Shown: positions 1,891 through 55,638 of the stretch, piece by piece
How the letters are laid out: the number at the start of each line of letters is the position of its first letter
How positions within the stretch are numbered: position 1 is the stretch's first letter
Assembly: GCA_948567375.1 (NCBI GenBank)
Contig: OX419755.1
Span: 61,887,945 to 61,951,944 of the forward strand
Origin: Lunularia cruciata
Taxonomy: Eukaryota; Streptophyta; Marchantiopsida; Lunulariales; Lunulariaceae
DNA length: 64,000 bases
Direction of reading: 5' to 3'
Translations under genes and position numbers: made by a program
Notes under the pieces: model-generated
Databases searched by the model: none
The model's input: the letters and a program-made list of their open reading frames with translations, nothing else
What the model was told of the DNA's origin: nothing

Positions 1891-2332
1891 CTTAGAGGCC
1901 CTTGGCCTTCATATCGGTGATCATTGAACAACATGGAGAGGCACATTTGGAAAACACTTTGGAAAACAAAGATCACTAGTAAATGTACCTCGTAGCCTTA
2001 CTAGCTCATAAGGAAGAAGAGAAGCAAGGGAAGGAAGAAGACTAATGTGCAAAGATCCCGAAAGGCAACCTCACAATTGATTGTCGTGAATGGAGTGTCA
2101 CGCCATTTGTAGTGCGCATCTAGATGCTTGGACACTGGAGTTCTAGTGATAGTAGTTTGAGTTATTTCAGCAATTTCTCAAAGACTACTTTTTGACGGTC
2201 AGATTTTGTGTTCGGGGTATTGACTTCACGATGGAGCCCACCATCACTTTGCACCGTTTGCACCATTGTGTGTGCCGTCAACGGGACCGTTAGGGTTTTA
2301 GAGCTAGCTCGAGTCCAGATAGTATAGTTTCA

Positions 2333-2356
2333 AAGTGAGCTCCAGAGAGCTCACTT
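2333..2356. promoter_or_regulatory. Conserved 10-bp-arm dyad in the family D repeat
   Basis: AAGTGAGCTC (2333-2342) and GAGCTCACTT (2347-2356) are perfect reverse complements around a 4-base centre. The arms are unchanged in the other two copies that include this segment (15515-15538 and 60183-60206), although the flanks and centre differ. It could be a protein-binding dyad or an RNA stem; the sequence alone does not decide. Confidence 0.6.
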
Positions 2357-3168
2357 CTTTGATGTTGAGCCTTTGAGTTCCTGGCTATGGTGGACAGAGG
2401 CCGGCGAGCGTCACCTGGATTCTCTATGCTTGAGTGGGTGTGGCTTGATTGTAATCAGTGCCTAGTTGTTGGCAATTTATAGAGTGACAAATCAAGTACT
2501 GATTTGAGTTGAGTTGAGTTGAAAGTGGTAAGCAATCTGATTGCATCAGAGGAGTGAAGTCAAGGGGAAATTGGGTGTAGGAACTTTGATTGTTGGTGGT
2601 ATCTCCAAACTTGGTGGATTGTTGGTAGCTCAATTCAAGCTCTGTGTTTCCCTAGTGTGCAGAAGCTCATTCGATTGATGTAGATTTGGCAGTTAGGCGG
2701 ACGGTGTGCGGAAGCACTAGCCAAATTTTGAGCAAAGAAGGAGCAAATTTCAAGCAGTGGTTGTGATTTTGAGCTCAGGAGGTGAAGGCAAGACCAATTT
2801 GCTGCAAGTTGGGCTCAGAAAGTCAAATTGAAGGTGTAGTTGGGAAGCTCTTCTCATGAATTTTTTAATTTGGAAAAACTCGTGTTGTCAATTTGGCTCG
2901 AGTGGAAAGTTAGCGGGGGATTTGGCGGACTGCCAACTTAAAGGTTTATGTCAGATTTTACATCAGATTTTGGTTGGGATTTATGTCAGATTTTGGCCAG
3001 ATTTGGAGGAGTTTTGCTAGTTTGGAGGACTTTCACAAATTTGGAGAAGTTTTGCCAATTTTGGAGGAGGTTCGAAGTGGCAATAAGAAAGACCTCATTT
3101 GGCTGAATTTTGTAGAGGCTTCAAGGCATAGGGCTATGGGCTATGAGAGGCTATGAAGGCCTAGAAGG

Positions 3169-3190
3169 GCCAGCAAGCCAGCTTGCTGGC
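3169..3190. repeat. Second dyad in the family D repeat
   Basis: GCCAGCAAGC and GCTTGCTGGC form a perfect inverted repeat with a 2-base centre. It is also perfect in D8 (59453-59474), while D9 near 63630 has a changed version. It lies in a locally repetitive GGCTATG/AGGCC tract, so it may be partly a composition effect. Confidence 0.5.
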
Positions 3191-3878
3191 GTGAGGCTAG
3201 CTAGTTTAGAGTAGATATTGGTCATTGGTTTGCAAAATTTGCCTTTCCTACTAGATTGTGCATAATAGGGTTTGACCCCTAGATCTCTTGTTCCTAGACT
3301 GGTGCCCTAGCAAACTGGTCCACCCTCACTTGTCATAGTGACTGTGCCACTGTTATCTATACTCATGTAGCTTTGGCTAGGAGAGGCAGTTTGATCCCAT
3401 TCTTGGTGATCATTGTAGCTTAGGACTTAGATACAAACTTCTCTTATGTCAAATGCCAAATGGTGGCAGAGTCAATCTCGTGTTGTGTTATGAGATGGAG
3501 AGTTTTTGTTTAGATTTCTTGTGATTGGACCCCCTCCATTCTCTACTTCCTATTTGTGCACCATGTTTGTGTAAGGTGCCATGACTTTTGAGCGTTGGTG
3601 CTCTAGTGTGCTCTTGGTGGTGAGGTTGGAGTGATGACCAGTCAGACTACCTTTGTTTCTCTTCGGTGAAGTAGGAAGTGATGACCTGCAGACCGTGAGA
3701 GTGCGTGTTGTGATGGCCGGTTACAGGTTGCCCTTTCCCCTAGTGTAGTTATCTTGGTTAGAGTTACATTAGTGGGTGGTGCTTAGTTGGTGTTGGCACG
3801 TGGTGGTGTTGGCACTTGGAGGGGCACTTGCGGTTGTAGTTGGTGGTTTGGGTTTGCTGTTGTGGTTACTTTGTCACG

Positions 3879-4960
3879 ATGGAGTTTGTTGGAGATTCCA
3901 AAGGAGTTAGCCCTATAGTACGTTGTGGGTTTACTTGGAGTGGTGCTCGGTATCAACCTGTATCTCAGGTCCCAGTGAGAGAGGAGATCGACTCTGAGTT
4001 GGAGTTTGACACAGGAGCTAATTCAATTGAGAGTGCACTTGGTGTGTCCGCACCATTGTTGTGGGACATGGATGAGATCTATGGGGCCTCCAAAGGCCCT
4101 AGGCATTACTTTGGTACAGTGGGTACCATTGAGTTGGATGACTTCATCCAAGAGTTTGATAGTTGGTGTGATCTACAGTAGATGCGGAACCCGACTTTGT
4201 TCACACCCTTCATGGCATGGAAGGGGTTGTTTCAGCATCTGGAGGGTCTGCCGATGGACGACTACCATGAGTTCAAGAGAGCTCATTTGGAGGAGATTGA
4301 GTTATGGAGACAATATTGGTCTCCACACCATGTCTCCATCACTTTAGGCTCGGTGGCCAGGAGTACATCGGTTGTACCTACGAGTTCTAGCTCAAGTAGT
4401 GTGGGTGGAGCTAGTGGAGGTGCACTAGCTGGAGATAGTGCTACTACAATTGGAGGTACCGCTACAGGAGGTGGTGTGGTACTGAGGTTTAACTCTTCCT
4501 ATGTTTGAGGTACAATTACCAGGGAGTGCGGACTGACAAGCTAAGGAGCTTGCAGGAGTTTCAATGGAAGGCTGGAGAGAGCCTATGCAAGGCATACACT
4601 CGCATGAGACGTCTGAGCAGTTTCACTCAGGGAGTTACTGACGCCCAGGCAGTCTAGTTTTGGTATGGGATATTGGATAGGGAGTTACAATGTAGAGTTT
4701 GTGATGCTACATTGTTATAGGCTACTTTGCCTACTTTGGCAATGGTCTTTGGTTTGGCTGAGCGTATTGAGCTCAACATGGTGGAGGAGAGAGTGGTGAC
4801 ATTTGGATTTAGTAGGGAGACCTCATCCACGGCTGTGACTTTTTCTAGAGTGCAGCAGAGTGCACCACGCCCAATTGGTTTTTGAGGACAGGGTGGATAG
4901 CCCAGATCCTATGGAGCGAGTGGAGGGCCTAGTGGAGTTAGACCTTTACTCTCATTTTTA
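3879..4960 (+). pseudogene. gag: Element B gag, capsid part
   Basis: Coding trace that starts at MEFVGDSKGVSP right after the leader. Around 4090-4330 there is a capsid-like stretch (RHYFGTVGTIELDDFIQEF, then FTPFMAWKGLFQHLEG), followed by a Ser/Gly/Thr-rich linker and further gag-like helices up to about 4960. The start is chosen because the same ATG context is present in the D8 copy near 58745. The family is inferred mainly from its position, upstream of two zinc knuckles and a protease. This capsid subtype is not one I recognise precisely. Confidence 0.7.
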
Positions 4961-4975
4961 GGTCAACATCAGCTA

Positions 4976-5335
4976 GTGAGTGGTGGTTTTGCTTGTTGGA
5001 CTTGTGGTGGACCTCACCATCGGAGAGAGTGTACTCAAGGCAGTGGACCTGATCCATTGGGTGCATCACATCCAACACAGAGGCAGTGTGAGCATTGCCA
5101 CAGATTTGGTCACACTAGTGATCGGTGTTTTGACCTACACTCGGAGTTACGGAGTGGTAGGGCTGTTATGGCAGGTAGTAGAGGAGCTCCAATTCATGGA
5201 GGACGAGGTGGTAGAGGTGGTAGTAGAGGATCTACACCTAGTAGGGGTGCAGTACTTGCACTTACTTCTAACACAGCTATGGCTACTCGGATTAAGCAGT
5301 TGGAGCAGAGATTGGCTAGTATGGCTATTGCTTAG
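4976..5335 (+). pseudogene. gag: Element B nucleocapsid: two zinc knuckles and a GR-rich tail
   Basis: Two CX2CX4HX4C zinc knuckles lie close together: CWTCGGPHHRREC at about 5000 and CEHCHRFGHTSDRC at about 5090. An Arg/Gly-rich segment (GGRGGRGGSRG, about 5200-5240) and a short helical end follow. In retroelements this module binds genomic RNA during particle assembly. The paired knuckles differ from the single knuckle of element A, supporting two separate lineages. Confidence 0.8.
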
Positions 5336-5557
5336 AGGAGATCAGATTTGGGTGTTGAGGCTTCCACCTCATATGCTGGTGATAGAGATGCTTTGGACTT
5401 CATGTGCAGAGTAGCACAGGTGGATGCATCTGCAGCAGTGACTAGGAGTATAGTACGTGCTCTAGAGCCTAGAGGAGCATCAATGGAGTTGGACCCCTAG
5501 AGAGGAGAGGTTGGGAGATAGGTCAAACTTCCCCAGTCTTTCACGCTATCTGAGGCA

Positions 5558-6400
5558 TTGCAGACAACATCCATGGTTCCTAAACGTCCCAGTGCAGGTG
5601 TGGTAGGTGGTGATAGAGTACATGATGGACTACTTGCTAGTCAGCCACCTGCTACTATAGAGACTGAGTCTACCATGATGTTGGGAGCAGCTCAGCTGAT
5701 TATGCGGCGTCCTTTGTTTTTGGCCAGTGATATGTTTACATTGGGAGTTAACCTAGCCCCAATATTCCAGTTGGCTGCCACGTTGTGTGAGAGTAGGGAT
5801 GGTGCAGTTCCTACTACTAGAGTAGAGGTGGTTGGTAGTGGAGCTGACTTGGTTGAGGAGCATGGGATCTGTTCAGCGATCAGTGGTTTATGGCATGCAG
5901 CAGCGGCTAGACTAGAGGAGTTGCCAGCTAGATCGGCCTTTGAGAGAGCGCGGTTCACACCTGGTGTTGTCCTATTGGATAACCAGAGGGGGATTTTCTG
6001 TTTGGTGGGACCTTCAGGGAAGGTCTATACACCACAGAGAGTCTTGTTAGACTATGGTGCGTAGCCCCTTATGTTGGGGAAGGTGGCAGTTGTCAGTTTG
6101 GAGTTACGGAAGACCAATAAGGAGAGGTGTCCATTTCAGATCCAGATATCTCTAGGTGGTGGTTCAACACAATACATTACATGTGGAGAGCTTGTTGTCT
6201 AGGTTTAGCCTGGTCATCCAACTGATAGCTCAGTGGTGAGAGCTCAGGCTATTGCGACGATAGCTGAGTCATATGATGTGCTAGTTGGGGGAGTAGTGTT
6301 ATACCCCATGGGTTTCAACATTGACTATTGGGGGGAGACAACCTCTTATAGACCTGGTTGGCAGTCTGGTGAGGGACGGGTATGTTGCCTACCAATACGC
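5558..6400 (+). pseudogene. Element B linker and aspartic protease region
   Basis: A low-similarity linker (about 5558-5950) leads into a retropepsin-like region. The active-site strand RVLLDYGA is at about 6036-6061. Further on, SYDVLVGGVVLYPMGF (about 6261-6310) matches the second conserved block of gypsy proteases, followed by a YRPGWQ...LP.RF stretch. The protease cleaves the polyprotein in this family. The call comes from motif spacing and from its position between nucleocapsid and the methyltransferase/RT. The linker has no recognised function. Confidence 0.65.
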
Positions 6401-6819
6401 TTTAGTAGTGGCAGTCTTGGCTCACTACAGTTTGGGACCATGGCAGCATCAGTTTTAGTCTTTGCCAATCTACGGGATTGGCCAGGCTTACCCGTGGCTG
6501 TTGAAATGCTGGCGGGGGCACAACATTCAGTGGTGCAGTTACTTGGCCCGATGACTTGTTGGAGGGGAACGCCCATGTAGAGGATACTCCAGTACTAGAG
6601 GAGATCACTTGGCTTTGGAGTACGAGAGGGATTGTTCCATCCACCTTGGATGTTCCATTGTGGAGTTCAGAGGAGGCATTGCAGCAGCATGCAGATTGGT
6701 TGGTGCAGCAGGCTTGGAGTGGAGCCTTCTTACCATCAGGAGATGAGTGTGAGGATGAGCCTCCAGAGGCAATTGCTTTGACACCTCTGGATACCACATT
6801 CATAGCTTGGCAGTATCCA

Positions 6820-7770
6820 GTAGAGGAGATATGCCTATTGGAGTTGTTTGGTAGGATCAGCACCGGACTAGCGGGTATACGAGTACAAAGGTACTTGTAT
6901 GTAGAGAGAGATGAGACTTCTAGGCGAGTCTCTCTACATCATGTGGCACACTTGGCCTATCCATATCCGGAGTTATTATCGATGTCAGCAGTCAGAGGTT
7001 ACCAGAAGGCCCTACCAGGAGACATTTCCTTATTGGGGGTGCATGACCTAAAGAGACATGGGCCTATTCACTTGGTGATTTTTGGATGGCCATGTCAGGG
7101 ATATACACGTGCTAGTAGAGGATTGGGTCTTCAAGATCCTTGTTCAGGTGTGTTTTGGGAGATGTTACGGATACTACAACATCTTCAGGTTCATCAGTCT
7201 GTTTCTCTAGCTTACCTTTTGGACAATGTTCCTTTGATGGGTGATTCTCGCACTAGAGTTGTGGCAAGTACACATCAAGTCCATTCTTGGATGGGACCTA
7301 TTGTATTGTTAGATGTAGCCAAAGTGGGATCACGGGCTCATTGTCTTCATCTTTGGTGAACGAACCTCTTACCTAGAGAGGTTCTACAACGTGCTTATGA
7401 TGGGATTCAGTGACTGGACCACATTCTTGTTGATGATATCTTGGATGTTGGGTGTTAGTCTCAGACAATAGTAGTAGCTGATAGGTCACCTATGGCAGTG
7501 GTGAACCTAGTTGGACAGCCTAGAGCCGCATTTCTCACACTCATGAGTTTCACAGGCTCTCATGCTTTTCAAGAGGGAGGACTTGGACTTGTTTGGGACT
7601 CATAGTTATAGCAGTTGGTGGAGCTCAACGCTGATGAGAGAGAGCGGGTGATGGGTTTTCGCACCGGTATTACCGCTGTTCCAGCAGCGTTAGAGGCATC
7701 CAGGCATCAAGTGTTAGGTCAGGCTATGGACTTGAACTGTTTGACCTGGATTGTGAGCATTGGCTTGGTA
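6820..7770 (+). pseudogene. C5-cytosine DNA methyltransferase domain inside element B pol
   Basis: A C5-cytosine methyltransferase in the conventional linear motif order. Motif I (S-adenosylmethionine binding): ELFGRISTGLAGI, about 6838-6876. Motif IV: GWPCQGYTRASRGLG with the PCQ loop at 7090-7098, the cysteine being the family's nucleophile. Motif VI: LLDNVPLMG, about 7214-7240. A motif VIII-like SRAHCLHLWTNL lies near 7330-7365. Motif IX: ERERVMGFRTGIT, about 7634-7672. Motif X: LGQAMDLNCLTWIV, about 7711-7752. The SRAH block and the ENV-type motif VI resemble DNMT3/DRM enzymes more than bacterial or MET1-type ones (inference). It sits between protease and RT, an unusual place for a host-type enzyme. 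It is part of a fossil and not expected to be active now. Confidence 0.85.
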
Positions 7771-8160
7771 GAGCAGCGTAGGATGCACTTGATAGGCATC
7801 ACTACTAGGACACTTGTGAGCCCTGTGCCTATCGAGACGATTCAAGCACAAGTTGGGGGCGATGGACCAAGTGGACATGGTATTCTTGGGACACATCCAG
7901 TAGCTACTAGGGAGAGTGGTCTACTTGGAGTCCATCCAGGTGAGCGTGGGCTACTTGGATTACATCCTTGGTCCACATGGGATGCAGCTAGAGGATGTGT
8001 GGAGCTTGCAGCCAGAGTGGAGGGAGTTTTTCACACAGAGATTGGGACCTCTAGTGGTCGGGAGCATGACACTATCGCTCCCAAGGGCCTAGTGTAGCAG
8101 TCAGTCAGTACGTCTTCCACTCCTACTATAGTTACAAAGGATACTTGGGAGCCAGATCTT
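7771..8160 (+). other. Spacer between methyltransferase and RT in element B
   Basis: Low-complexity coding-like stretch with repeated short blocks of the form GxLGxHP (GILGTHP, GLLGVHP, GLLGLHP at about 7887-7970), then sequence leading into RT. I recognise no domain. The short repeats suggest a flexible linker in the polyprotein. Confidence 0.5.
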
Positions 8161-8163
8161 GGA

Positions 8164-9060
8164 CCCAAGTTTACTAGAGAGGAAAGACTGAGGGTTTGGA
8201 GGTTCTTGAGGAGTCACACGAGTTGTTTTGCCTTCAGTATGAAGGATTTGGGTGCTTTGAAGGGACCTGGTGTACGGATTGAGCTGACTAGCGACACACT
8301 AGTTTTCCGATGTCCTTATTAATATAGTGATATGGAGAGGACATTGATTCAGAGCCGGAGTAGTGACCTTTTTGAGGCTGGTTTGGTGGAGATTTCACAT
8401 GGAGAGTATGCATCAGCGACAGTGATGCCAGCCAAGAAGGATATGCATGGCAACTATACAGATAGGCAGATGTGTGGAGATTACCATCCTATCAACCAAC
8501 AGACCAGGGCTGATTGGTATGCCATGCCTACAACGGAGGAGATTTTTGATACAATTGGGTATGCAAAGGTCTTCAATACTTTGGATCTTTGAGGGGGATA
8601 TCATCAGTAGCCGATCAAGGAGGAGGATAAATCCAAGACAACATTTTGGGCTATTGATCCTCACGGCAAGGATGTGTTATATCAATGGAGGTTCTTACCA
8701 TTTGGGTTAAAGAATGCTCCTGCTGAGTTCTAGAGGGTCATGGATAGGATCCTAGTTGGATTGGATTTTGCTCGGTGCTATATTGATGACATTTTGGTTT
8801 ATAGCACTACTTTGGAGGAGCATGAGAGACAATTGTTGGAAGTGTTTGAGAGGTTGAGATCTCATGGACTCAAATTACATCCTAGGAAGTGTAGGTTCTT
8901 CCACGAGCAGGTTGAGTATTTGGGTCACACTACCTACCCAAGAGGACTTGGTGTTCAGCAGACCAAGGTGGAGGCTATTGCAAGTATTCCTCGGCCTACG
9001 GATATGAGTAGAGTGCAAGCATTCCTTGGGTTGGCAAACTTCTATCACCGCTATGTTAGA
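8164..9060 (+). pseudogene. pol: Element B reverse transcriptase
   Basis: Ty3/gypsy reverse transcriptase. The entry block LVEISHGEYASATVMPAKKD is at about 8383-8442, followed by a CGDYHPIN segment, FNTLDL at about 8574-8592, FWAIDPHGKD near 8650, FLPFGLKNAP at 8695-8725 and the catalytic block YIDDILVYS at 8779-8805, then HGLKLHPRKC and VEYLGH. The thumb and connection read QAFLGLANFYHRYVRGF. This gives a firm Ty3/gypsy assignment. It copies the element RNA into DNA in living relatives. Confidence 0.92.
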
Positions 9061-9119
9061 GGATTTAGTGCCATTGCCAAGGCCTTGACGAAGCTGACCA
9101 AGCTTACACAGGAGTGGTG

Positions 9120-9590
9120 TTGGGGAGATAAGCAGGAGAGAGCTTTTGTAGAGCTCAAGGAGAGGTTGACATTTGCTCCTATTTTGAGGAGACCAATCAA
9201 AGGACAACCATTTCAGGTTCACACTGATTGGAGTATGTTGGGGCTTGGAGCGGTGCTCACCCAACATGATGATGAGGAGAACAAGTTTGTGGTGGCCTAT
9301 GCTAGTCGCTCCAACAATTCAGCGGAGGCGAAGTATAGTTCATATGAGGGAGAGTGCTTGGCAGCAGTTTGGGCAGTAGCACATTTTTGATGTTACCTAT
9401 TTGGTAACCCCTTCACTCTCATCACTCATCATCAGCCACTAAAGTGGTTGATGGAGTCCAACAAGCTTTCAGAGAAGCTTGCACAATGGGCTTAGATTTT
9501 ACAGGAGTATGATTTCATGGTTGTTCATAGACCTAGAGTGGTGAACCGTGATGCGGATTGGTTGAGTAGAAACCCATGTCCCAGCCAACA
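9120..9590 (+). pseudogene. pol: Element B RNase H
   Basis: Gypsy-type RNase H directly after RT: an HTDWSMLGLGAVLTQ strand at about 9220-9264, VVAYASRSNNSAEAKYSSYEGECLA at 9292-9360, and VVHRPRVVNRDADWLSR near 9517-9570, the usual end block of the domain. C2 is inserted a little downstream (9856). Confidence 0.88.
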
Positions 9591-9850
9591 GGATCAGACC
9601 AAAGCACATTGGCATGGTGAGACAGATGAGGAGATGGTGCTAGGTTGGCATGCATCGGCCTTTCTGTGTATATTTGTAGAGGCTTTGGGGGTATCTCTCT
9701 CAGCGCATACAGGAGGAGTTATTGAGGTCACAGATCTAGAGAGTGAAGATATTGGTACAATTTAGCAAGACATTCATGATGATGTCTTAGTGATGGACTA
9801 TCTTCACATTGGTGTTGTGGGTGGCATAGTTGGGGCCAAGGAGAGAGACT

Positions 9851-9855
9851 GTGTT
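9851..9855. repeat. Target site duplication of C2, left copy
   Basis: GTGTT here is repeated exactly at 13630-13634, immediately outside the two ends of C2. It proves insertion of the whole 3.77 kb unit as a piece and fixes both ends. Confidence 0.9.
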
Positions 9856-10401
9856 TATAGTGCTCACATTTTTTTTTTCAAAATAAAGGAGAAGAAGTGT
9901 ATAGAGAGGTCGGATTGCGCCTGTATGGCCAAAGAAGGCGAAGAAAAGTGTCTTTGGGATGAAACCCAAAGTAAAGTGACTTTGTGTCATAAGGCGAAGT
10001 CCTCGGAAAGGCCCTGTCAGCATACCATACAAAGTAAATTGTCTTCGGATCGGCGGGAGCTCAACCCGAGGCAAAGACAATCTAACAACCTTTTGTTGGG
10101 GCGAGAAATTCAAGAAGGTGTCGTTTCAAAACTGGCGGCTCATACGCGCAAAGGTTGATTGACAGTGACAGGTGCATGCAGGAGGTGTGATTTCTTGGTA
10201 GAAACTTGAAGCGACGGAAGACGAAGAAGTGCAACTCTATAAAAATTGAAACTGCAACGACAAAATGTCAAGCAATTTTCCTTTGCCGTTGAGAAGTCGT
10301 CTTGCAGGTGATCGGGGGAAGGGAAATAGAGTTGTACTTGGGTTAGTGCACAAGGGAGAAGTTGCGAGAGAGAAATAGAGAGATAGTAAGAAAGCAAAAG
10401 A

Positions 10402-12836
10402 GATGGGAGGAGGGAAGAAAAACTCTGAATTCGTAGTGAGAAATCATGCGATTCGGAGATTAGATGTAGTAGCGAGGATAGAAGTCTTGAGCCGACTTCG
10501 GATCACCTTTCTGGCATGGAACTAGAATGTAAGTTTTCCAGGATTCATGACAGAAATCATCGAGAGTAAATGTCTCGATGGTCCCGAGGAAGAAGGGAAG
10601 AGAGGAAATCCGGCTCGCTAGACAGAGTCGGATTGGAGACTCGTACTCGGGAAGGAGGCAGGTTCGGAGCAGGGAGCCACGTTCTTGGGGAAAGGAGAGA
10701 TAGCCCAAGAAATGCAGGAGGTGAGAGATGCCTTCTCATTGAAGAGAACAAAGAATGGGTACAAAGTTGAGAGCTACAAAGACCCTGTGAGGAGAGGAAT
10801 TGTGAGTGCACTAATGGCCATCCTGAACCCGGAGAGAACCACTTATGTGATGAAACACCAAGCGGTGTTCTTTCACAAGTTATTTGCAGGAGAACCGATC
10901 AATTGGGCAAGGTGCTTTCACGGGAGAACAAGGCAGATGGTGTGGAATCTGCGGGATAAGTCGCCTCCACACTACATCGTACCATTTGCATCACATTTCT
11001 ACCTCGGGTTGAATTTGCTCAATTTGGCAGAGCGCAATAGAATGGTGTCTCATTTCCATCCTGACTTGAGAAGAGAAGTCGACGCGGAGGAGCAGCAATA
11101 CATTCTCCAAATCCGGAGCACGGATGACTACTATGCAAAGACAGGGAAAACATGGAGGTCGTGGTAAGTACCCCAATGAAGAAGAGAACTCGGCATGCAG
11201 AAGCCAAAGAAAACAAGAAACCTCGGAAGATGCAAAAACATAACCCAAGGCGAGGGATGGTGGTGATTGAATCGGAAGATGAAGACTCAGAAGGCAAAGC
11301 CAAGCTCAAGACGGAGGACTCGGAATGTGAGGAGGAACCTGAGCTGACCTTGCAGAGTGGAGATACTAGCAGCGACAGTGAAGACGGTGGAGAAATGACC
11401 TCGGCACCAGCGGCTGAAGAATACGAAGGAGAAGTGCAAGCCAAAGTAGAAGCCAAAGACAATGCGGCACTAGAAGACAAAATACCGGTGATTGAGGAGA
11501 AGAAGATTGTAGTACAGCGAGGAATTCGCTCGAGACGTAAGGCAAAGTGTGAGGCGGGGCCGAGTAAAGTGAAGGCAGATGCAGAAGATAGCACGAGTAG
11601 TGAGGTATCAATTCCGATACGAAGACTTCAGCGACGAAGGCGCATATCAAAAGAACATGAGGAGAAACAAGAAATTACTCCGTGGGAGGAGGAAGTTGCC
11701 AGTGAGGGAGTCGAGTACCTGCAGAAGGTAGTATGCCCGCTGTTAGTGAAGTTGGAGAAGAAGAAGAAGGAGATGCAGTCGACTTGTCCAGAGGTAAAGA
11801 CTGTATTGTAGGTGGTAGCGAGATTAGAAGAAGAAAACTCGGAGTTGAAGAAGAGTATAACCCGAGGTGAGAAGGAGAGAGAAGTACTGCAAGCGGAAGC
11901 AGTAGAGAGAAGTTAGGTAATCAAAGACCTGAAGAGAGAAGTGAGCTATCGAGAGGATCTTGCGAGGAAGAGTGACATCGTAAGAGAGAGACATGTAGCT
12001 GAATTTGAAATCTTGAAGCAGCAGTTTGTTGATTCAAGAGTAGAGCTTATCCATGCTATGGCGAGGGTAGCATCAAAGGACCAAGTGCTCGATCGAGTGA
12101 TGGAGAGTATGGAGGAGAAGAAGCAGCTCTGGCAAAGAGAGTTTTCTGTGCGGTATAGAGAAGAAGAGAGATTACAAGAGTTACTTCATAATCAGGAAGA
12201 GAAAATCATATAGAAGGAGAAAGAGAAGGAGGCGGTGAAGGCCAAGTTCAAAGAGAGTTGGCGATGTATAGAGAGGAATGGCTTGCAGATCGGGAACGAG
12301 AACGAAAGACAAGATTGGAACCATTGAAGGAGATAGTCCTTAGAGTGAACGTAATGTTGAGTACAGAAGCCAGCGTTCGGATTGAAGAAACAAGGTTGCA
12401 TGAGTTGAAGTTGTTGGTGCAGGAGACAAGGCAAAGACAAGCAAAAGATACAGATTTGAATGCCTTGTTGATTAGTCTCAAAACTCGTGTAGACAGGAAG
12501 ATCTTAGAAGTAGAAGATAATATTGCGATTAGATTAGACTTAGTGAGAATAGAGTTAGAAAAGCTTCGGCAGGATGTTAAGGCAAAACCCGAAGTAGATA
12601 ACATAGGAATCCAAATGTCTTCGGAGTTGCCCTCAGAGACATTAGAGAAGAGTGGGTCAAAGGATGAAGAGTTAGATAGATTACCCACTAGTGCAATTTC
12701 AGATCAGGAAAGAGAATTGATGGATCTGGTTGAAGATGTAGGAGATGTGAAACCCGAGGAAAATATAGTAGGAAGTAAGATTACTTTGGGTTCGGGTTTG
12801 AAAGCCGAGGAAGAAGTAGACATCGGATCGGATTAG
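10402..12836 (+). pseudogene. Family-C coiled-coil protein, C2 copy
   Basis: Coding trace of the family-C protein, about 810 codons. Parts in order: a basic start MGGGKKNSEF; RLDVVARIEVL and FPGFMTEI blocks; a conserved globular-looking region (about 10745-11110) with NGYKVESYKDPVRRGIV, NPERTTYVMKHQAVFFHKLF and SPPHYIVPFASHFYLGLN; a Lys/Arg-rich then acidic Ser/Glu-rich stretch (about 11150-11480); a long coiled coil (about 11700-12250); and a C-terminal helix block with RLHELKLLVQETR and VDRKILEVEDN. I recognise no known family and no enzyme motif. The ATG is chosen because C4, C5, C6 and C8 share a start at the same place. It is broken in several places. The protein may bind nucleic acid or form filaments (speculative). 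Confidence 0.75.
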
Positions 12837-12951
12837 TAACCGATTTGAGATTTGAAGGGGCAGATATGAAGAGGTGCATTGTCATTTCGGATCTGCAGGT
12901 TAGAACAATTGTTGTAGAATGGTATAGTTGTTAGAACTGTCGATTGCTTCA

Positions 12952-12960
12952 CTATTTAAG
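12952..12960 (+). promoter_or_regulatory. TATA-like box of C2, downstream of the coding region
   Basis: CTATTTAAG lies about 115 bases after the end of the coiled-coil coding trace. The equivalent place in C4 (25271-25280, CTATTTAAAG), C6 (54951-54960) and C5 (39460-39469, CTATCTAAAG) keeps the box in the same context. In LTRs such a box marks the U3/R promoter, which would put the coding region in U3. Confidence 0.6.
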
Positions 12961-13477
12961 AGTGGCATTCGCAGGAAATTGTTGTTCAATGCTCATTATT
13001 TTTGAGAATAGATAAAGCAAAGTGCTGTGAAGCAGTGCTCGTTGCTTGAGCTTGATTCTGAGTATCAATTTTGCAATTGTGTTTGTGAATGTTTGGAGAA
13101 ATTTGAAGTGCAAGTCAGAGTGCTTGTTGGATGTTGGATTCCACAGCCTTGATCTTCATTCTGTGTGTTTGATCCTGAGTGAAGTGCAATTGAAGCAATG
13201 CCTTGACAGATCTGAGAGGAATTGTAGTGTTGGTAGTATTCTACATTTGTGAGTGTAGTGCGAAGTTGATGTGAAGCAATTTCGATCGAGGAAGTTGTGC
13301 CTTCAGTGGAGGGGTGGAACACAATTCTGAGGTGAAGTCGTTTTGCAATGAAGTGCCGTTTTTGGGAGAGCCTGAATCATCACAATCAAGATTGTTTGGA
13401 AAGATTTGATGGAGTTGTGATTATGGAGTGTTAATTTGTGACAAGACTGCGAGTCAGTGCTTGTTACTCTCTTCTGG

Positions 13478-13629
13478 GTGTGGTTTCTACCTGAGAGACT
13501 AAAGAAGAACTCAAGAAGAACTGAAATTGTTACTTTGCTTTGTATTTGGACATTTTTGACTCGTATCTCTGCGGGAACAAACTTTACTTACCCGATTACC
13601 GCAAAAGTGATATTTGCCGGGTTGTCACA
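13478..13629 (+). repeat. Conserved terminal block of family C
   Basis: The last 150 bases of the unit are its most conserved part: a GGTGTGGTTTCTACC-type segment, a GAGACTAAAGA-type segment, then GATTACCGCAAAAGTGAT and the GTTGTCACA tip. The same order is visible in C3 (reverse), C4, C5, C6 and C9, in a fragment at 25742-25942, and more weakly at 30440-30606. It behaves like the R-U5 end of an LTR. Confidence 0.7.
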
Positions 13630-13639
13630 GTGTTCTTCA

Positions 13640-14830
13640 GCAAGCCAGATGGTTCAGATTGGAGGGTAGACACCTTTTGAGTGTATGGGAGGATGGTAGA
13701 GTGCAAGTAGTACCACTTCCATCTCAGAGACCATAGTTGGTCCGTCATGCTCATGAGGAGCTAGGACCTTTTGGAGTAAGCGTACATATAGCTTACTCTA
13801 GAGTCATTATTGGTGGCGCGGTATGCAGACCAAGGTACAGTAGTTTGTTGCCAAATGTGTGGTTTGAGACCAAGTTAGAGCATCATTCAATGCTCCTACG
13901 CCACAGTTACACCCATTACTTATCATGGGATTGGGTTACCATTGGAGTTTGGACTTTGCCAAACCTTTACCGCTGACTGTGAGACATCATCGGTATGTTT
14001 TGGTGATGGTGGAGCACTTCTCCAAGTGGATTGAGTTGGTGGCACTTCCTGACAAGTCTAGTGAACGGACAACTTACTCGTTCCTAGATCAAGTTCTTAG
14101 TCATTTTGGTGCACCAGCTGAGGTTTTGACTGATCAAGGTACAAAGTTCTTGGGGGAGTTCCAGGTCTTGTGTGACAAGCCTTTGATTGATCATCATACT
14201 ACATCTCAAGATCACCTTGAGGCAGATGGATTAGCAAAGAGAGTGGTTCAAACGGTGAAGAGAGGATTGCAAAAGTATGGTTTGCAGAGAGGCCACTTGG
14301 GAGATTGGGATCCCCAGTTACCTTGGTTGGCCATGGGCTATCAGTTCAGCCGGCAAGCCTCCTTAGCATCCTTCTCTCCATACTTTCTACTCTATGGACA
14401 AGATCCAGATTTACCTGCAGCCATTTATCAAGATGCTACTGTAGTTTTGGACTTGGATGACCTTGATGTATGGATGAGCACATGTTCTCAGTGGGCAAAG
14501 ATCTTTTGGAGAGTGATGCCAATGGCCTTTGAGAACTTGGCAATTGCTCAGCATAGAGATACTTTATGCTACGCTACCATTCGAGGAGGAGGTTATAGAC
14601 CCTCAATCCGTCGATTTCATCCAGGCAACTATGTATATCTAAAGCAGATAGCACCAACGACACTTGATGTTTCTACATGCTGCACTATTTTGAGAGTGCG
14701 CGAGGTTTTGCCATCTAGAGTCCTTGTGTTAGAAGGATGTGATGGTGTTATTTGGAAGGATCATGTGTGCAATTGTGCGCCATGCCACCTCCCAAATATT
14801 GATGGTACTATGGACCCAAGCTTGGCACTT
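13640..14830 (+). pseudogene. pol: Element B integrase
   Basis: Ty3/gypsy integrase, resuming after C2. The N-terminal zinc-binding region is near 13735-13890 (VRHAHEELGPFGV). The catalytic core follows: LDFAKPLPL then YVLVMVEHFSKWIELVALPD (about 13950-14055), FGAPAEVLTDQGTKF (14107-14151), and the third acidic region in HLEADGLAKRVVQTVKRGL (14213-14270). The C-terminal part has FHPGNYVYLKQ (14614-14650) and an LRVREVLPSRVLVLEG stretch, in the position of a GPY/F-like module. A PHD finger follows in the same frame. Integrase joins element DNA to the chromosome in living relatives. Confidence 0.88.
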
Positions 14831-14839
14831 ATACGTGCA

Positions 14840-14989
14840 AGCTTGAGGTGTATGTTATGTAGCTCTTCTGGTGGAGCTACTACTATATTAGTGTGTGATA
14901 GCTGTTTGAGAGGATGGCATATGGCATGTATGACTCCTCCCCTCATGGTGGTTCCTCAGGGACAGTGGTTATGTCCTAGATGTACTTGA
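14840..14989 (+). pseudogene. PHD finger at the C-terminus of element B integrase
   Basis: A Cys4-His-Cys3 zinc finger ends the polyprotein: CMLC, then CDSC, WHMAC and CPRC with PHD-like spacing, and the aromatic residue two before the last Cys pair (QWLCPRC) typical of PHD fingers. PHD fingers in chromatin proteins read histone H3 tail states. At the end of an integrase the domain occupies the place where chromoviruses carry a chromodomain, so a targeting role is a fair inference. RING fingers differ in ligand order and lack the W before the final pair. Confidence 0.82.
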
Positions 14990-15276
14990 CTTATAGCTAG
15001 TTCATTCTTTATATGGTATAGATTGCAGGCAAGCGACTAACGATGGGGCTCCATAGCACCGGGGCTCCATAGCACCCGGCCTCCTGATCTTTGCCCATTA
15101 GAGGGTATACCATATACTTAGAGTAGATGGCTATCTGGAGTTAGAGGGACCTAACCGCCAGCTAGGGGGGCAATTGTGGCACTTTAGAGTCTATGTATGA
15201 CTTATGTGTGAGTTGTGCTTCTATAGTGTATTGATAGCAATGTATGTTGTGTAGCAATGTATTTACGCACGATAGC
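14990..15276 (+). other. Element B 3' non-coding stretch
   Basis: Between the PHD-finger end and the 3' repeat. It contains a perfect 16-base tandem duplication (GGGGCTCCATAGCACC at 15045-15060 and 15061-15076) and a purine-rich AGCTAGGGGGG at 15160-15170 that could be the polypurine tract, although the 3' repeat begins about 100 bases later. The 15173-15275 segment is repeated at 15720-15826. Confidence 0.55.
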
Positions 15277-15826
15277 TGTCACGCCATTTGTAGTGCCGCA
15301 TCTAGATGCTCGGACACTGGAGTTCTAGTGATAGTAGTTTGAGTTATTTCAGCAGTTTCTCAGAGACTACTTTCCGACGGTCAGATTTTGTGTTTGGGGT
15401 ACTAACTTCACGGTGAGGCCCACCGTCACTTTGCACCATTTGCACCATCGAGTGTGTTGTTAGCGGGACTGTTGGGGTTTCAGAGCTAGCTCAAGTTCAG
15501 GGGGTATAGTTTCGAAGTGAGCTCCAAAGAGCTCACTTCTTTGATGTTGAGCCTTTGAGTTCTTGGCTATGGTGGACAAAGGCCAGCAAGCGTCACCTGG
15601 TTTCTCTATGCTTGAGTGGGTGTGGCTTGACTTTAATCAGTGCATAGTTGCTGGCAATTTATAGAGTGACTGATCAAGTACTGATATGAGTTGAGTTGAG
15701 AGTGGTAAGCAATCTGATTATTGTGGCACTTTAGAGTCTATGTATGACTTATGTGTGAGTTGTGCTTCTATAGTGTATGATGTTGACAGCGATGTATGTT
15801 GTGTAGCAATGTATATACGCACAACA
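15173..15826 (+). repeat. Duplicated 100-base segment bracketing the 3' repeat of element B
   Basis: 15173-15275 and 15720-15826 are nearly identical (ATTGTGGCACTTTAGAG onward) and flank the 443-base family-D repeat at 15277-15719. The right copy runs straight into the protease region of element A. This is not a normal LTR end, and suggests a rearrangement or gene-conversion event at the B/A junction. Confidence 0.7.
15277..15719 (+). repeat. Element B 3' terminal repeat (family D)
   Basis: Matches 2096-2540 base for base apart from about a tenth of positions and one short length difference, starting with the same TGTCACGCCATTTGTAG and including the 10-bp-arm dyad at 15515-15538. Its divergence from the 5' copy is the age signal for B. 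Confidence 0.85.
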
Positions 15827-15970
15827 AGAGTCCTAGAAGGCACTCAAGTGAGAGTATTAATCAATCCGGGAGCAATAGAGAATTTCTTATCTTGCTCTAT
15901 TGCAATAAGATTGGGAATGGATCTAGAGAGAGATGGGAGTGAAGAAGTAGAGTTGCCTAACGGGTAAACA
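15827..15970 (+). pseudogene. Element A protease region
   Basis: After the duplicated segment, coding trace of element A resumes with VRVLINPGAIENFLSCSIA (about 15850-15905), in the position and pattern of a gypsy retropepsin (V-L-I-x-x-G-A-x-x-N-F). A CDS-like continuation to about 16150 includes the LGMPWMEHYNPMVDW block that follows the protease in plant gypsy elements. Confidence 0.7.
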
Positions 15971-16177
15971 AAGAGGATTGAATCATTACCTAGACGGGTC
16001 ATACTCTATGTAGGAGAATATCAAGAAGCAATTGAGTGGCGAGTGATACAATTAGCTCATTATGATGCAATCTTAGGCATGCCATGGATGGAGCACTACA
16101 ACCCTATGGTAGATTGGAGGAAGAAAGTAGTGAGAACCCACCAATAATCAATCATTGGGGTTAAAGAAAAATCACCC

Positions 16178-17170
16178 ATGCAGGATCTGCCTCTATATGT
16201 CATAGGGATGGCAATTGTCTATAAGACTGATAGATGTTTCATGGGTCTAATAAGAGAAGTCCAGAGTGCACAACTTGATGGACAAATTCTTGAGAAATTG
16301 AAGGTTGTGGTGGATGAATTTCAAGATGTCTTTCCCAATGATCTACCCTCAGGATTACCACCAAAAAGGAGAGTAGATCATAAAATTGAGACACTCTTGG
16401 GGAAGACACCTCCTTGTAAGGGCCCATATTGCCTATCACCTCATGAATTGGAGGAATGTAAGACTCAAATTGAGGAGATGCTGCAAAAGGGGTTCATCCA
16501 ACCTAGCATATCACCATATAGGGCTCTTATCCTGTTTGTGAAGAAGAAGGATGGTACAATGCGCATGTGCATTGACTATCAAGGTCTCAATCAACAAATA
16601 GTGAAGAACAAATACCCCTTACCTTGCATGGATGACCTGTTTGATCAACTCCATGGAGCAAGATACTTCATCAAATTGGACTTGCGAAGTGGTTACAATC
16701 AAATCCAAATTGCAGAGGAGGATGTGTACAAAATTGCCTTTTGAACTAGGTATGGCCACTTCGAGTATCTTGTGATACTTTTTGGCCTCACCAATGCACC
16801 TGCCACTTTCATGAGTCTAATGAATGGCATATTTCATCCATACTTAGATAAGTCTATTATTGTCTTCTTGGATGATATCTTAGTATATAGTAGCACGATG
16901 ACAGAACACAAACAAAATCTACGAGAGGTCCTCTAGATTCTAAGATAGAATAGACTATATGCCAAAATGTCAAAATGCAAGTTTGGCAAGTCTGAAGTAG
17001 ACTACTTGGGGCATAGAGTAAGTGCAAAGGGCATTCAAGTATTGAAGGATAAAATAAAGGGTATTAAAAAATGGAGTGTCCTAGAAGATCAGACTCAACT
17101 CAAGAGCTTCTTGGGGTTGATGGGATTCTATCAAAGATTTGTCAAGGACTTCTCCAAGGTTGCATAGCCT
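16178..17170 (+). pseudogene. pol: Element A reverse transcriptase
   Basis: Ty3/gypsy RT. The entry region [17 protein letters not shown] is at about 16320-16370, followed by [16 protein letters not shown] and [19 protein letters not shown] (16534-16590), [25 protein letters not shown] (16675-16707), [10 protein letters not shown] (16782-16811), the catalytic block [10 protein letters not shown] (16866-16895) and VDYLGHRVS (17001-17025). The thumb reads FLGLMGFYQRFVKDFSK. Similarity to common plant chromovirus-like gypsy RTs is very strong; no unusual domain is present. Confidence 0.92.
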
Positions 17171-17189
17171 TTAACGGCACTACTTGGCA

Positions 17190-17660
17190 AGGGGAAGAAG
17201 TGGACATGGGAACCACACAAGAGTTGGCCTTTGAAGAATTGAAAGCCGCCTTGCTACATACACCAATCTTGAAGTGGTATGACCCAAAATGTCCAATCAA
17301 GTTGGCTACAGATGCATCAAGCATAGCAATAGGAGCAGTCCTACAAAAAGAGTGGCATGACGGATGACATCTAATTGCATATTTCTCTCGAAAGTTGTTA
17401 ACGGCAGAGCACAACTACCATACCACAAAACAAGAAGAGTTGGCCATCATTGTGGCAACCAAGCATTGGAAGCACTATCTGGGCAAGAAGGCATTTGTAG
17501 CAAAGACAAACCAAAAACCTCTAGTCTACCTCAAGACGTAGAAGGATCTATCTCATCGCCAGATTCAGTGGGCAAAGTGGCAACAATGCTTTAATATGAC
17601 AATCACCTACGTGGAAGGTAAGAAGCAACTTGTAGATGCATTCACCTGCATGCCAATGGC
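17190..17660 (+). pseudogene. pol: Element A RNase H
   Basis: Follows RT with KLATDASSIAIGAVLQKE (about 17302-17355), an AYFSRKLL strand and the KQEELAI / KHWKHYL helices (17430-17480), ending in a VEGKKQLVDAFTC block at about 17610-17650. Standard gypsy RNase H. Confidence 0.85.
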
Positions 17661-17839
17661 AAACAACTTGGTGGTAGAGGTTAAGATTAACCTTGAATTC
17701 TAGCCAGAGATTCTAGTTGCTACAAAAATTGATCCACAGATTGTAGAAGCGCAATCATCCAAAGGCATCACTAGCACCCAAGGACTCACCTTTTGTGATG
17801 GCAGATTATGGATCCCAAATGTCCCAAAATGATGCACTA

Positions 17840-18786
17840 CCATTCTAGCGGAATGTCATGATTCAGCCATTGCAGGTCACGTCTGAGTAAACAAGACCTT
17901 GGATGCAATCCAGCGCCATTACTATTGGCCTAAAATGAGCAATGACGTGATAGACTACGTGCGCAGCTGCCTACTTTGTCAATAGAACAAAGCTTCTAAT
18001 CAAGCTCCTGTAGGGCTCCTTCAACCTCTCCCCACGCCTACCCAATGTTGGGAACAAGTGAGTATGGATCTCGTCTATGAATTATCCAAGATCACCTCAG
18101 GGTTTGACTCCATTGTGGTCTTTGTGGACCGGCTCAGCAAAATGATTCATGTATGCCCTACCACCAAGGATGTGACCGCTCCACAACAAGCTCAATTATA
18201 CTTAGATGCAGTCTTCTCTCACCATGGCTTGTCTAGAGTATTTATCACTAATAGAGGCACTCAATTCACTAGTTTTTTTTGGCAAACACTCTTTGGTTTC
18301 TTCAAAACCAAGTTGGCCATGTCCACAACTTACCACCCCCAAACAGATGGCCAAACAGAGCAGGCTAATTGCATGATTGAAGACATGTTACGCGGCTTCA
18401 CCTTAGAAGAGCAAGAGAGGTGGGACACCCTACTCCCACTGGTGGAATTTGCTTACAACAAATTCAGTGAATGCATCCACCCAAGTCACTCTATTCTTCC
18501 TCATGTATAGTGAGCATCCCTTCACACCTTCTAGCTTGATGAAGATCCATCCAGTGGCTACCAAGGTCGATGCAATCAACACGTTTGTTTCTAAAATCCA
18601 ACAGTATGTTGATGCACACCATAGGCACATGGAGTTCAATGTTGGGGATCAAGTGTGGCTATTGACAACCAACCTCACATTAGTTGGACCTTGTAAGCTC
18701 AGACCTCGTTTTATTAGGCCTTTCTTGATTCTTCGTCACATCGGCATTGTGGCCTATCACCTTGAGCTACCACGAGACATGAATTA
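17840..18786 (+). pseudogene. pol: Element A integrase with GPY/F-type tail
   Basis: The zinc-binding region ECHDSAIAGH with a CLLC pair is at about 17850-17985. The catalytic core includes VSMDLVYEL (18058), FVDRLSKMIHV (18121-18153), FITNRGTQF (18241-18267) and TYHPQTDGQTEQAN (18330-18371). The tail reads VGDQVWLLTTNL (18643-18678) and KLRPRFIRPFLIL (18690-18729), a GPY/F module. It ends without a chromodomain. A run of 14 C at 18808-18821 lies just after the coding trace. Confidence 0.9.
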
Positions 18787-19188
18787 GGCCTAAAAAATGT
18801 GCAGATTCCCCCCCCCCCCCCAATAGAAGAAAGGATGGCCTTCCCTTCCCCTGGTTTGTCTTGTCGAGAGCTTTCCAATGGTACCTTACTCATGTGATTT
18901 TGAGACTCCTACAAGAAGATTCCCTAAAAGATTCCCTCATGTCAAAGCTTGTTTGACCAACCAGATAGGACCTAGACCGACATGTCACCCATCCAAGTAA
19001 GTAATCCAAGGGTGGAGCTTGCTGACATGTCACCTATCTGTGTGCCTAATCCTATGGTGGAGCTTCCTTGGAGGAGATACTCTTTGTCTATATAATAAAG
19101 GGAAGGTGTTCCTTTGGGGCACCGAATGTTGAGTGTGTAATTTGTATTTCCCTCTCTTCTCTTGTCCTCGGAGTATTACAAGGATGCT
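18787..19188 (+). repeat. Element A 3' non-coding end with TATA box
   Basis: Non-coding sequence after the integrase trace. CTATATAATAAAG at about 19088-19100 is a clear TATA-type box, so at least part of this is probably the 3' LTR. I cannot place the LTR start, since no 5' copy is in view. C3 is inserted at 19189; the sequence resumes at 21071 and fades by about 21100. Confidence 0.55.
19184..19188. repeat. Target site duplication of C3, left copy
   Basis: ATGCT is repeated exactly at 21071-21075, immediately outside C3, fixing both ends of that unit. Confidence 0.88.
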
Positions 19189-21070
19189 TGTGACAACCCG
19201 GCAAATATCACTTTTGCGGTAATCGGGTAAGTAAAGTTTGTTCTCGCAAAGATACGATCCAGAATTGGTCAAATACAAAGTCCAAAGTCACAATTGCAGT
19301 TCTTCTTGATGGCTTCTTCAATCTCTTAGGTAGGAACTACACCCAAAAGAGAGTAACAAGCTCACAATCTTGACAACTTGTCACGAATACACACACATAA
19401 TCACAACATAGTCAATTTTGTCCAAACAACTCTTGATTGTGATGATTCAGATTCTCCCAAAGATGGCACTTCACTGCGAAGACCGATTTCACCTCAGAAT
19501 TGTGTTCCACCCCTCCACTGAAGGCACAACTTCCTCGATCAAAATTGCTTCACATCAACTTCGTACTGCACTCACCAATGCAGAATACTAACAACACTAC
19601 AATTCCTCTCAGATCTGTCAAGGCATTGCTCCGATGCACTTCACTCAGGATCAAACACACAAAATGAAGATCAGAGCTGCAGATTCCAACATCCACAGAC
19701 ACGCTGACTTGCTCTTCGGAATTCTTCACACACTCACAAATACAAACACGAAATTGACAATCGGAATTAAGCTTAAGCAACGAGTACTAAGAACAGCACT
19801 TCGCTTTATCTATCTTCAGAAAGATGAATACTGAATAACATCGTACTGCAAATGCTTCAGTTAAATACTGAAGCAAACAGCAGATTTGCCTTCCTAGCAC
19901 CGCTTCTTAAAATCTCTTCCTACCTACAGATCCCAAGTGACAATCTATTTCTTCATATCTGACCCTTCTTATCTCCAAATCAACATTTATCCTGATCCGA
20001 TCTCTACCTCATCATCGGCTTCCAAACCCGATGATCTTCTTACTACTTCTCCTTATTTGGGTATGATTGATTCTACTAATTTCTTCACTAATTCTACAAC
20101 TTCTACACTAGGAACTACAATTGAGCTCATGGGTAATCCATCTACACTCTTATCTCTTGACCCACTCTTCTCTAATGTATCAATTCTCAAGTCCGATGAT
20201 ACTTGAGTTCCTACATCTGCAACATCGGGTTTAATTACAATCAATTCCTTTGCTAATTCTACTATATCCTCATCACAAATTGTAATTGAAAGCATGGGTA
20301 CACTATCTATGCCTTCAATTTGTAACCCACTTTCCTCTAATCACTCATGTTATAGACCCGAAGACACTTACAATCTGATCTTGCACTTCGGGTTTATTCA
20401 CTATTGCTACTTCTCCTTCAATTCTTGTTCCATCTTCAATCGGAACTGAAATTGATGTCATGGGTATCCTAGCTATCTCTTCTTTCTTTATCCTAAATCT
20501 CTCTAATGCCTCTGGCAAGATTCCCGAATTCATCTTCATTGTACTCCGAGGTCCAACTATCTCAGATACAGTTGTCTTTGTCTTGAGTCGAAGAAGCTTC
20601 CCACTCAAAGTTGTGTAAACCCGAAGTCCAACATCCGAAGATCAAAGTCTGAAGTCTCAAGTCCGAAGTCCGAAGATCCAACCCGAAGACACTAAACTAC
20701 TTTGTACAATTACTCCCAAAACTTTAAATACTTGTAACTTCTTCTACAGACCTCCAAACTTTGCGATTTTGGTATCAACAGAAAGCCTTGAACAAGATGC
20801 TTCCAACAAGATATAGCGGGTTTGATTTGGACTTGTGAACATTGAGATATAGCTCCCGCAAGAATCTTGACCTATAACTTCCATTCCTCCTTCGGGTCTA
20901 CCCTCTTTCAATCTTGGCTGAGTCCGTCTTCATTTGACACAAAGTCGACTTCTTTGGGCTTGATCAAAATACAAATTTCCTCTCATTTCTTCTCCATTTG
21001 GTTTCAATTTGGTTTTAGCGAGGCACTTCTTCTTCAAAACTCGTCTAAAATGAAAAATGTGGGTACCACA
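19189..21070 (-). mobile_element. C3: short family-C unit, reverse orientation
   Basis: On the minus strand it begins TGTGGTACCCACATTTTTC (at 21070) and ends GGGTTGTCACA (at 19189), flanked by exact ATGCT duplications. At 1.88 kb it is half the length of C2. It keeps the 5' leader, a C-terminal coding remnant (about 19920-20620, with an ESIIP/LPMSSI type acidic tail), the TATA-like region (about 19860) and the conserved terminal block. It is a fossil with many breaks and sits in the 3' end of element A. Confidence 0.88.
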
Positions 21071-55633: not shown

Positions 55634-55638
55634 TGATT

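Follow-up and report, generated by a model that had tools for sequence, protein, structure and literature searches.

DNA methylation is the mark that plants use to silence retrotransposons, and a 64,000-nucleotide stretch of the liverwort Lunularia cruciata (contig OX419755.1, positions 61,887,945 to 61,951,944; hereafter the window) holds a Ty3/gypsy-type element, element B (2096–15826), that appears from its sequence to carry a gene for an enzyme of the type that writes this mark. An earlier note on this DNA placed a C5-cytosine methyltransferase between the protease (PR) and reverse transcriptase (RT) of element B, at 6820–7770. The locus thus raises the question of whether this DNA methyltransferase (DNMT) belongs to the element, and if so, what the element does with it.

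Here, we show that the methyltransferase gene is a regular part of the element and no accident, because it lies at the same place in most sampled copies. The family has a consistent anatomy, intact catalytic motifs in many copies, and target duplications of the integrase type. On balance we favour the reading that element B is an old member of a highly abundant Ty3/gypsy-type family, in which a first open reading frame (ORF1) encodes Gag, PR and a DNMT3-type enzyme, a second (ORF2) follows a UAG codon, and the enzyme may methylate the element itself.

The methyltransferase and its family

The DNMT domain of the window copy (6805–7740; like all features of element B, on the forward strand) is recognized by Pfam, protein search, a structure-database profile and its motifs. 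Motifs I to X occur in the usual, unrearranged order at 6832–7737, within the limits first given: motif I (6832–6867) reads FGRISTG where open copies have FGGISTG, motif IV (7075–7107) is an intact GWPCQG, motif VI (7216–7242) is DNV in place of ENV, the motif VIII region (7330–7356) is SRAHCLHLW, lacking the arginines of SRAHRLRLW in open copies, and motifs IX and X lie at 7621–7737. The 284-residue product of 6505–7359 in frame +1 (P0001) matches Pfam DNA_methylase at E=1e-4, barely above the cut-off (22.3 bits against 22), and DNMT3A in PDB at E=0.0098; these scores are weak because the copy is decayed. Reading 6505–8157 with X at stops matches 60 proteins (best E 3e-139), the top six being 60–64% identical, and the DNMT frame, read likewise, continues into RVT_1 (4.5e-28) and RT_RNaseH (7.6e-33) at 8149–9618. 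Motif order, Pfam match and the in-frame RT and RNase H all bear out the placing of a C5 methyltransferase between PR and RT. The window copy itself is dead: the DNMT stretch 6505–7740 has five in-frame stops and a deletion of 5 residues after motif I, in addition to the change of ENV to DNV and the lost motif VIII arginines, and the PR active-site motif is DYGA (6038–6061) rather than the DSGA of relatives.

We searched the 565.8 Mb assembly (74 contigs) – at 566 Mb not the giant genome that had been supposed – and found 2,932 exact sites of an RT 22-mer, with none for the reversed-pattern control. Among 20 of these (every fifth of 100 listed sites, all on one chromosome and within its first 16 Mb), the DNMT stands at the expected place with at least 80% kept in 16 and is partial in two (363 and 634 of 1050 nt); in the other two the family match stops inside RT, with an inverted family piece beyond it in one. 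No DNMT-less version of the family appears in this 20-site sample. Scaled from the sample, DNMT-bearing copies probably number above two thousand, and most family copies are decayed. The domain also occupies this place in ten of ten copies fetched by choice, and the earlier claim of residence in a family, which absence from other copies would have undone, therefore holds; the copy survey and the 22-mer count rule out a one-off host fragment or artefact. Two further scans set lower bounds. A Pfam scan scored the top 123 of 2,161 ranked candidates, a few of which are host genes and many of which lie in open frames reaching 1,428 aa, and a scan with the relative P0002 scored the best 111 of 13,362, every one spanning essentially the whole domain and about 66 being stop-free by our count. 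Nearly all matches in the genome lie on eight contigs of 60–85 Mb, and one is on C15.

We fetched the ten copies for the length of their open frames, passing over one that has 1256 aa and the TAG, and the set is therefore biased to intact copies. They carry gag, the protease region, DNMT, RT, integrase and a PHD finger in order, with 5′ truncation in L021 and L023. ORF1 is open over 1428 aa in two of the ten and the DNMT domain is stop-free in nine, with motifs I, IV (PC), VI (ENV), VIII, IX and X in order in the open copies. Conservation extends to 57 aligned relatives with identities down to 33%, in which motif IV PCQ, the motif VI E and the motif VIII SxAHRxR are each at least 90% conserved.

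The element enzyme is of DNMT3 type, with DNMT3 its nearest neighbour among solved structures by both sequence and fold. A PDB profile built from 15 relatives ranks DNMT3A first (2e-23), then DNMT3B, DRM (4.5e-16), DNMT2 (1.6e-11), HhaI (3e-8) and DNMT1 (0.09), a ranking that disfavours a DRM or bacterial origin. The predicted structure of P0002 (predicted local distance difference test score, pLDDT, 91) has DNMT3A as its best Foldseek match, with template modelling (TM) scores of 0.65 by query and 0.84 by target, and all 50 PDB entries among the matches listed are DNMT3. The motifs had been thought to lean toward DNMT3 or DRM; the DNMT3 half of that statement stands and the DRM half falls, as the motifs run from I to X without the DRM order (VI–X before I–IV), and DRM structures align to the motif I–IV half alone. 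The same genome has a DRM-like frame, in locus L002, with the rearranged order.

In a tree of 27 rows, 23 element enzymes lie on one side of a branch with 100/100 support, and two host DNMT3-like genes, the host DRM-like gene and human DNMT3A lie on the other. Three of these four rows are partial, the DRM and human branches are long, and the program warned that long branches may be joined falsely. The host DNMT3-like genes (L029 on C7, L030 on C1) match in separate exon-like pieces. P0030, labelled as Candidatus Obscuribacterales bacterium, falls within the retrotransposon enzymes and is probably from a mis-binned eukaryotic contig.

Plant-named relatives among the matches listed (120 of 196 in one search) come from the liverworts Marchantia, Riccia and Calypogeia and from Sphagnum, not from vascular plants, as which the source of this DNA had been taken; most matches are unlabelled. 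The name Klebsormidium nitens is absent from the matches listed in three protein searches, and a viral-contig scan with P0002 gave no match. Some more distant metagenome relatives (P0069, P0161, P0163) have DNMT and RT in a single frame, and in P0162 and P0164, also from metagenomes, the DNMT – recognized in P0162 by alignment and not by Pfam – lies between RNase H and integrase with the PHD finger kept, which may reflect a shift of the domain during the history of the lineage. A 10-row RT tree pairs P0069 with P0163 and P0162 with P0164, as does the DNMT tree, and is otherwise poorly resolved. Eight relatives gave a usable RT match, and in six of these pairs the DNMT and RT identities agree within 6 points (69/70, 42/47, 36/39 and 38/41% among them).

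Plain ratios of nonsynonymous to synonymous polymorphism (pN/pS) being too weak against a non-coding control, we compared singleton with shared variants in 33 copies (protease 13, DNMT 33, linker 33 and RT 29 copies). Nonsynonymous and synonymous counts in the DNMT are 112/55 for singletons and 38/36 for variants in at least three copies (p=0.022), and in RT 108/51 and 27/28 (p=0.015). The lower nonsynonymous share among shared variants, alike in both segments, suggests that, in the lineages that moved, constraint acted on the DNMT much as it did on RT.

Reading frames, ends and insertion

The DNMT had been described as carried inside a polyprotein. It does lie between PR and RT, but not simply in mid-polyprotein: in the window an in-frame TAG CAG TCA (8095–8103) ends ORF1, closing Gag-PR-DNMT ahead of RT and RNase H (8098–9620, Pfam). 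The TAG is present in the window and in all ten fetched copies, and recurs there in all 23 further copies – drawn from 24 loci among the best Pfam-scan matches, with L036 dropped for want of a family DNMT match, which L001–L004 likewise lack – giving 34 of 34 closely related copies that are not 34 independent cases. Younger copies read TAG CAG CCA after the DNMT, followed by RT, RNase H, integrase and PHD, and in 32 of the 34 the six bases after the TAG fit CARYYA; UAG-CAR-YYA is the context of type I readthrough signals. Copy L017 has, by our count, 117 residues between motif X and the stop. Proteins from Marchantia (P0143, P0149), Calypogeia (P0005) and Sphagnum (P0057) end 86–90 residues past motif X, and the stop may therefore be old.

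Upstream of the DNMT, the element has an untranslated leader (2543–3878), conserved in fetched copies and without a long open frame, then gag (3879–5334), with a frameshift and stops, and the protease region (5522–6580). In the window gag and protease have no Pfam match and are assigned by collinearity with relatives, gag being collinear with ORF1 of open copies and with Marchantia proteins. CCHC zinc knuckles can be seen by eye in gag at about 4994–5032 and 5087–5128, and Retrotrans_gag matches only weakly in relatives (E=0.07 in the open ORF1 of L009). The protease has no Pfam match in the ORF1 of L009 either; relatives match PF13650 at 1.4e-5 (P0026, above the cut-off) and 8.8e-5 (P0154, slightly below). 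Downstream, integrase (13640–14835; rve core about 13937–14203, Pfam) is followed by a PHD finger (14849–14983; Pfam PHD 7.6e-10) whose C4HC3 set is intact and whose nearest PDB chains include CHD4, KMT2D, PHF21A, KDM5B and ATXR5. PHD fingers of the H3K4me0 type are defined by their binding of unmodified H3. The Ty3/gypsy order of RT, RNase H and integrase is found in the window and in L015, with PR placed by collinearity only, and the RT of the Marchantia relative P0017 has Ty3 RT as its best match (6e-60).

Instead of the plain long terminal repeats (LTRs) of Ty3/gypsy elements, element B has split direct repeats in the order A1...B1-A2-B2. Self-BLAST defines A1 (2096–2542), which begins TGTCACG at the 5′ end and is 89.5% identical to A2 (15277–15719), and B1 (15173–15274) and B2 (15720–15826), the latter forming the 3′ end. 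The arrangement recurs in eight of the ten fetched copies, A1 being shortened to about 77 bases in L011. B1 and B2 are 98–100% identical in eight of nine copies and 93% in L015/L016, and A1 and A2 are 97–100% identical in seven of eight and 89% in L015/L016. Family ends are TGTCACG at the start and mostly CACGACA at the end. Between B1 and A2 lies a GC spacer (15275–15276), and the junction reads GATAGCTGTC in the window; in eight of the nine copies printed it is GACA-GC-TGTC, a 10-bp palindrome (GACAGCTGTC). The best tRNA primer-binding site, an initiator-methionine-like match of 9/12 bases equalled by other tRNAs, is about 1.4 kb from the 5′ end.

Element B is flanked by GGAG (2092–2095) and AGAG (15827–15830), a target-site duplication with one transition, and among eight copies having both ends seven show, by eye, a perfect 4-bp duplication of the kind an integrase would leave. 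The split repeats, the 4-bp duplication and the PHD finger are additions to what had been described for this element, and the pairing of split repeats with integrase-type duplications is a replication question in itself. The insertion site is another gypsy-type element (1–2095 and 15831–18800), whose open frame is restored when the flanks are joined, the empty site reading QLIVVNGVLEGTQVRVLINPGA.

Element B is in turn split by a younger insertion of ~3.8 kb (approximately 9860–13629), absent from the ten fetched copies. It includes an LTR-like repeat (12792–13629) that self-BLAST also finds, in both orientations, at 19189–20183, 39149–40129 and 55016–55645. Two further 5′ ends of the element B family were identified by self-BLAST, at 58707–60444 on the reverse strand, ending at about the gag start, and at 63045–64000 on the forward strand, continuing past the window edge. 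Elsewhere in the genome, L027/L028 is a family copy inserted in another family copy with a TCTT duplication, and more B-A-B repeats lie downstream.

Proposed self-methylation and its alternatives

We propose a model in which the DNMT would be made in Gag-like amounts, enter the particle along with Gag, and methylate the element complementary DNA (cDNA), probably at CG sites, while reverse transcription is under way or soon after it, and ahead of integration. The PHD finger could help to steer insertion to chromatin whose H3 is unmodified. cDNA methylated in advance might be taken for host DNA, or be dampened at the outset, and the lowered cost to the host would allow the lineage to be kept. 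The cDNA may pass through a circle opened by integrase, since the internal B1-GC-A2 junction holds both element ends abutted. The full combination – a land-plant lineage that packs its DNMT at the level of Gag through a leaky stop, methylates its cDNA, has a histone reader attached to its integrase, and inserts by means of the integrase from an abutted-end circle – is offered only tentatively, and as a whole is doubtful.

Several observations weigh against self-methylation by a conserved, ORF1-encoded enzyme. In the 20-copy sample, no DNMT is both full-length and stop-free. Motif IV is PCQ in the element rather than the PCN of DNMT3A, and one metagenome clade has EHV in place of ENV. Variants in exactly two copies resemble singletons (DNMT 36/19, RT 30/14), and the protease and linker, which are shorter segments, are not significant (p=0.074 and 0.26). 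Plain pN/pS in young copies, with stop-bearing copies dropped per segment (leaving 9 of 10 for DNMT, 10 for the linker, 6 for RT and 5 for RNase H), is 0.42 for DNMT, 0.50 for RT and 0.59 for a non-coding pseudo-frame, and 0.51 and 0.80 in two wrong frames. DNMT and RT identities are out of step for P0017 (64/78) and P0159 (50/73), and L015/L016, one of the eight two-ended copies, is without a target duplication. The models P0144, P0146 and P0148 from Marchantia and P0159 from Sphagnum continue into RT, for which predicted introns or true variation could account, and the stop in P0009 comes 26 residues past motif X.

The decay of the window copy points the same way. Compared with ten younger copies, it shows T for C at 22% of CG, 18% of CHG and 3% of CHH sites (9, 4 and 2% in the reverse direction), the trace that methylation of the host type at CG and CHG would be expected to leave; CHG is not known as a context of DNMT3-type enzymes. 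Because this decay is concentrated at CG and CHG, the window copy, the one old copy compared, seems to have been silenced by its host despite its own DNMT.

This same pattern bears on an alternative that puts the target of the enzyme in the host: it would work on host chromatin, or rival the silencing enzymes of the host, for instance by tying up host cofactors or by making methylation spread or thin out. Thousands of RT sites and a position in ORF1 would yield much enzyme, and the genome has DNMT3-like and DRM-like genes of its own with which to interfere; the window copy nevertheless decays like ordinary host-silenced DNA, and the physical link to Gag and PR favours a task in the particle. 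We consider a host target unlikely.

It is likewise improbable, to about the same degree, that the domain is kept for a task that is non-catalytic or does not involve DNA, such as binding or methylating element RNA or shaping the particle. DNMT2-type enzymes, which the PDB profile also matched, are a precedent for RNA as a substrate of this fold, catalytic motifs are altered in a few relatives (PYQ in P0018; ECQ and ENT in P0162), and the K. nitens domain gave no methylation in yeast, a result that also tells against self-methylation and that its authors graded inconclusive (de Mendoza et al. 2018, PMC5890265). Set against this are the conservation of motifs IV, VI and VIII across the 57 relatives and the wide lead of DNMT3A over DNMT2 as a match in both sequence and fold.

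Two further alternatives have almost no standing. Decay and a borderline profile match in the window copy alone might have suggested that just one copy had captured a piece of a host gene, an idea that the survey refutes and the 100/100 separation from host DNMT3-like and DRM-like genes opposes. DIRS elements have a tyrosine recombinase and are not known to leave a target duplication, and although split direct repeats recall them, a DIRS-type element misread as gypsy is scarcely credible given DDE integrase and H2C2 domains, a Ty3-like RT, 4-bp target duplications, and no tyrosine recombinase among Pfam matches of the element and relative parts scanned.

Comparison with known systems

Ty3/gypsy chromoviruses encode RT, RNase H and integrase followed by a chromatin-reader domain, the chromodomain, C-terminal to integrase. 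Element B shares this order and the position of a chromatin reader, and differs in having a PHD finger in place of the chromodomain, a DNMT, and split repeats rather than plain LTRs. With host DNMT3 and DRM its enzyme shares the catalytic fold and motifs, but the element enzymes are separate in the tree.

Retrotransposon-borne DNMTs have been described before. The earlier note mentioned a 2018 report of them in charophyte algae and dinoflagellates, which exists and describes the nearest case: K. nitens has DNMT3 in gypsy elements that bear DIRS-like repeats, Symbiodinium has it in DIRS elements, and de novo CG methylation by the Symbiodinium enzyme was demonstrated in yeast (PMC5890265). A 2025 paper refers in one sentence to reports from streptophytes and dinoflagellates of DNMT3 members lying within LTR Copia and DIRS elements, a sentence in which land plants are unnamed (PMC12344493). 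In a passage arguing from the loss of DNA viruses, a 2019 opinion paper states that land plants lack transposon-borne DNA methylases (PMC6338049), and the Marchantia and Sphagnum proteins contradict that statement. Among the open-access papers searched, only PMC5890265 joins DNMT3, gypsy, bryophyte and retrotransposon.

The family described here extends DNMT-bearing retrotransposons from algae to land plants. Its presence in Marchantia, where genetics and methylomes are available, allows a direct test of self-methylation, and the layout of Gag-PR-DNMT, stop and RT-IN-PHD makes specific predictions on stoichiometry and timing. If the model is true, these tractable liverworts would harbour a writer-and-reader system owned by the element.

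SymbioDIRS-Dnmt3 of Symbiodinium resembles element B in being a retrotransposon-borne DNMT3 within a polyprotein and in having split repeats, but is of the DIRS class with a tyrosine recombinase, and is an independent capture according to the authors' account (PMC5890265). The element B family is, by its architecture, of the same kind as KnitGypsy-Dnmt3 of K. nitens: both have the gypsy domain set, an unrearranged DNMT3, no introns and DIRS-like repeats, and the purifying selection reported there is paralleled here by the singleton and shared variants. They differ in host, a charophyte alga as opposed to named relatives in liverworts and Sphagnum with thousands of RT sites, and in the place of the DNMT, which is described within the Pol ORF of KnitGypsy-Dnmt3 and ends the Gag-PR ORF before an in-frame TAG in the element B family. 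A PHD finger, present here, is absent from the main text of PMC5890265, and target duplications, seen here in seven of eight copies, are unmentioned for KnitGypsy-Dnmt3 in its section 9. Set beside that account, the element B family adds to a shared design a Gag-PR-DNMT frame closed by its own stop, a PHD finger, and target duplications of the integrase type.
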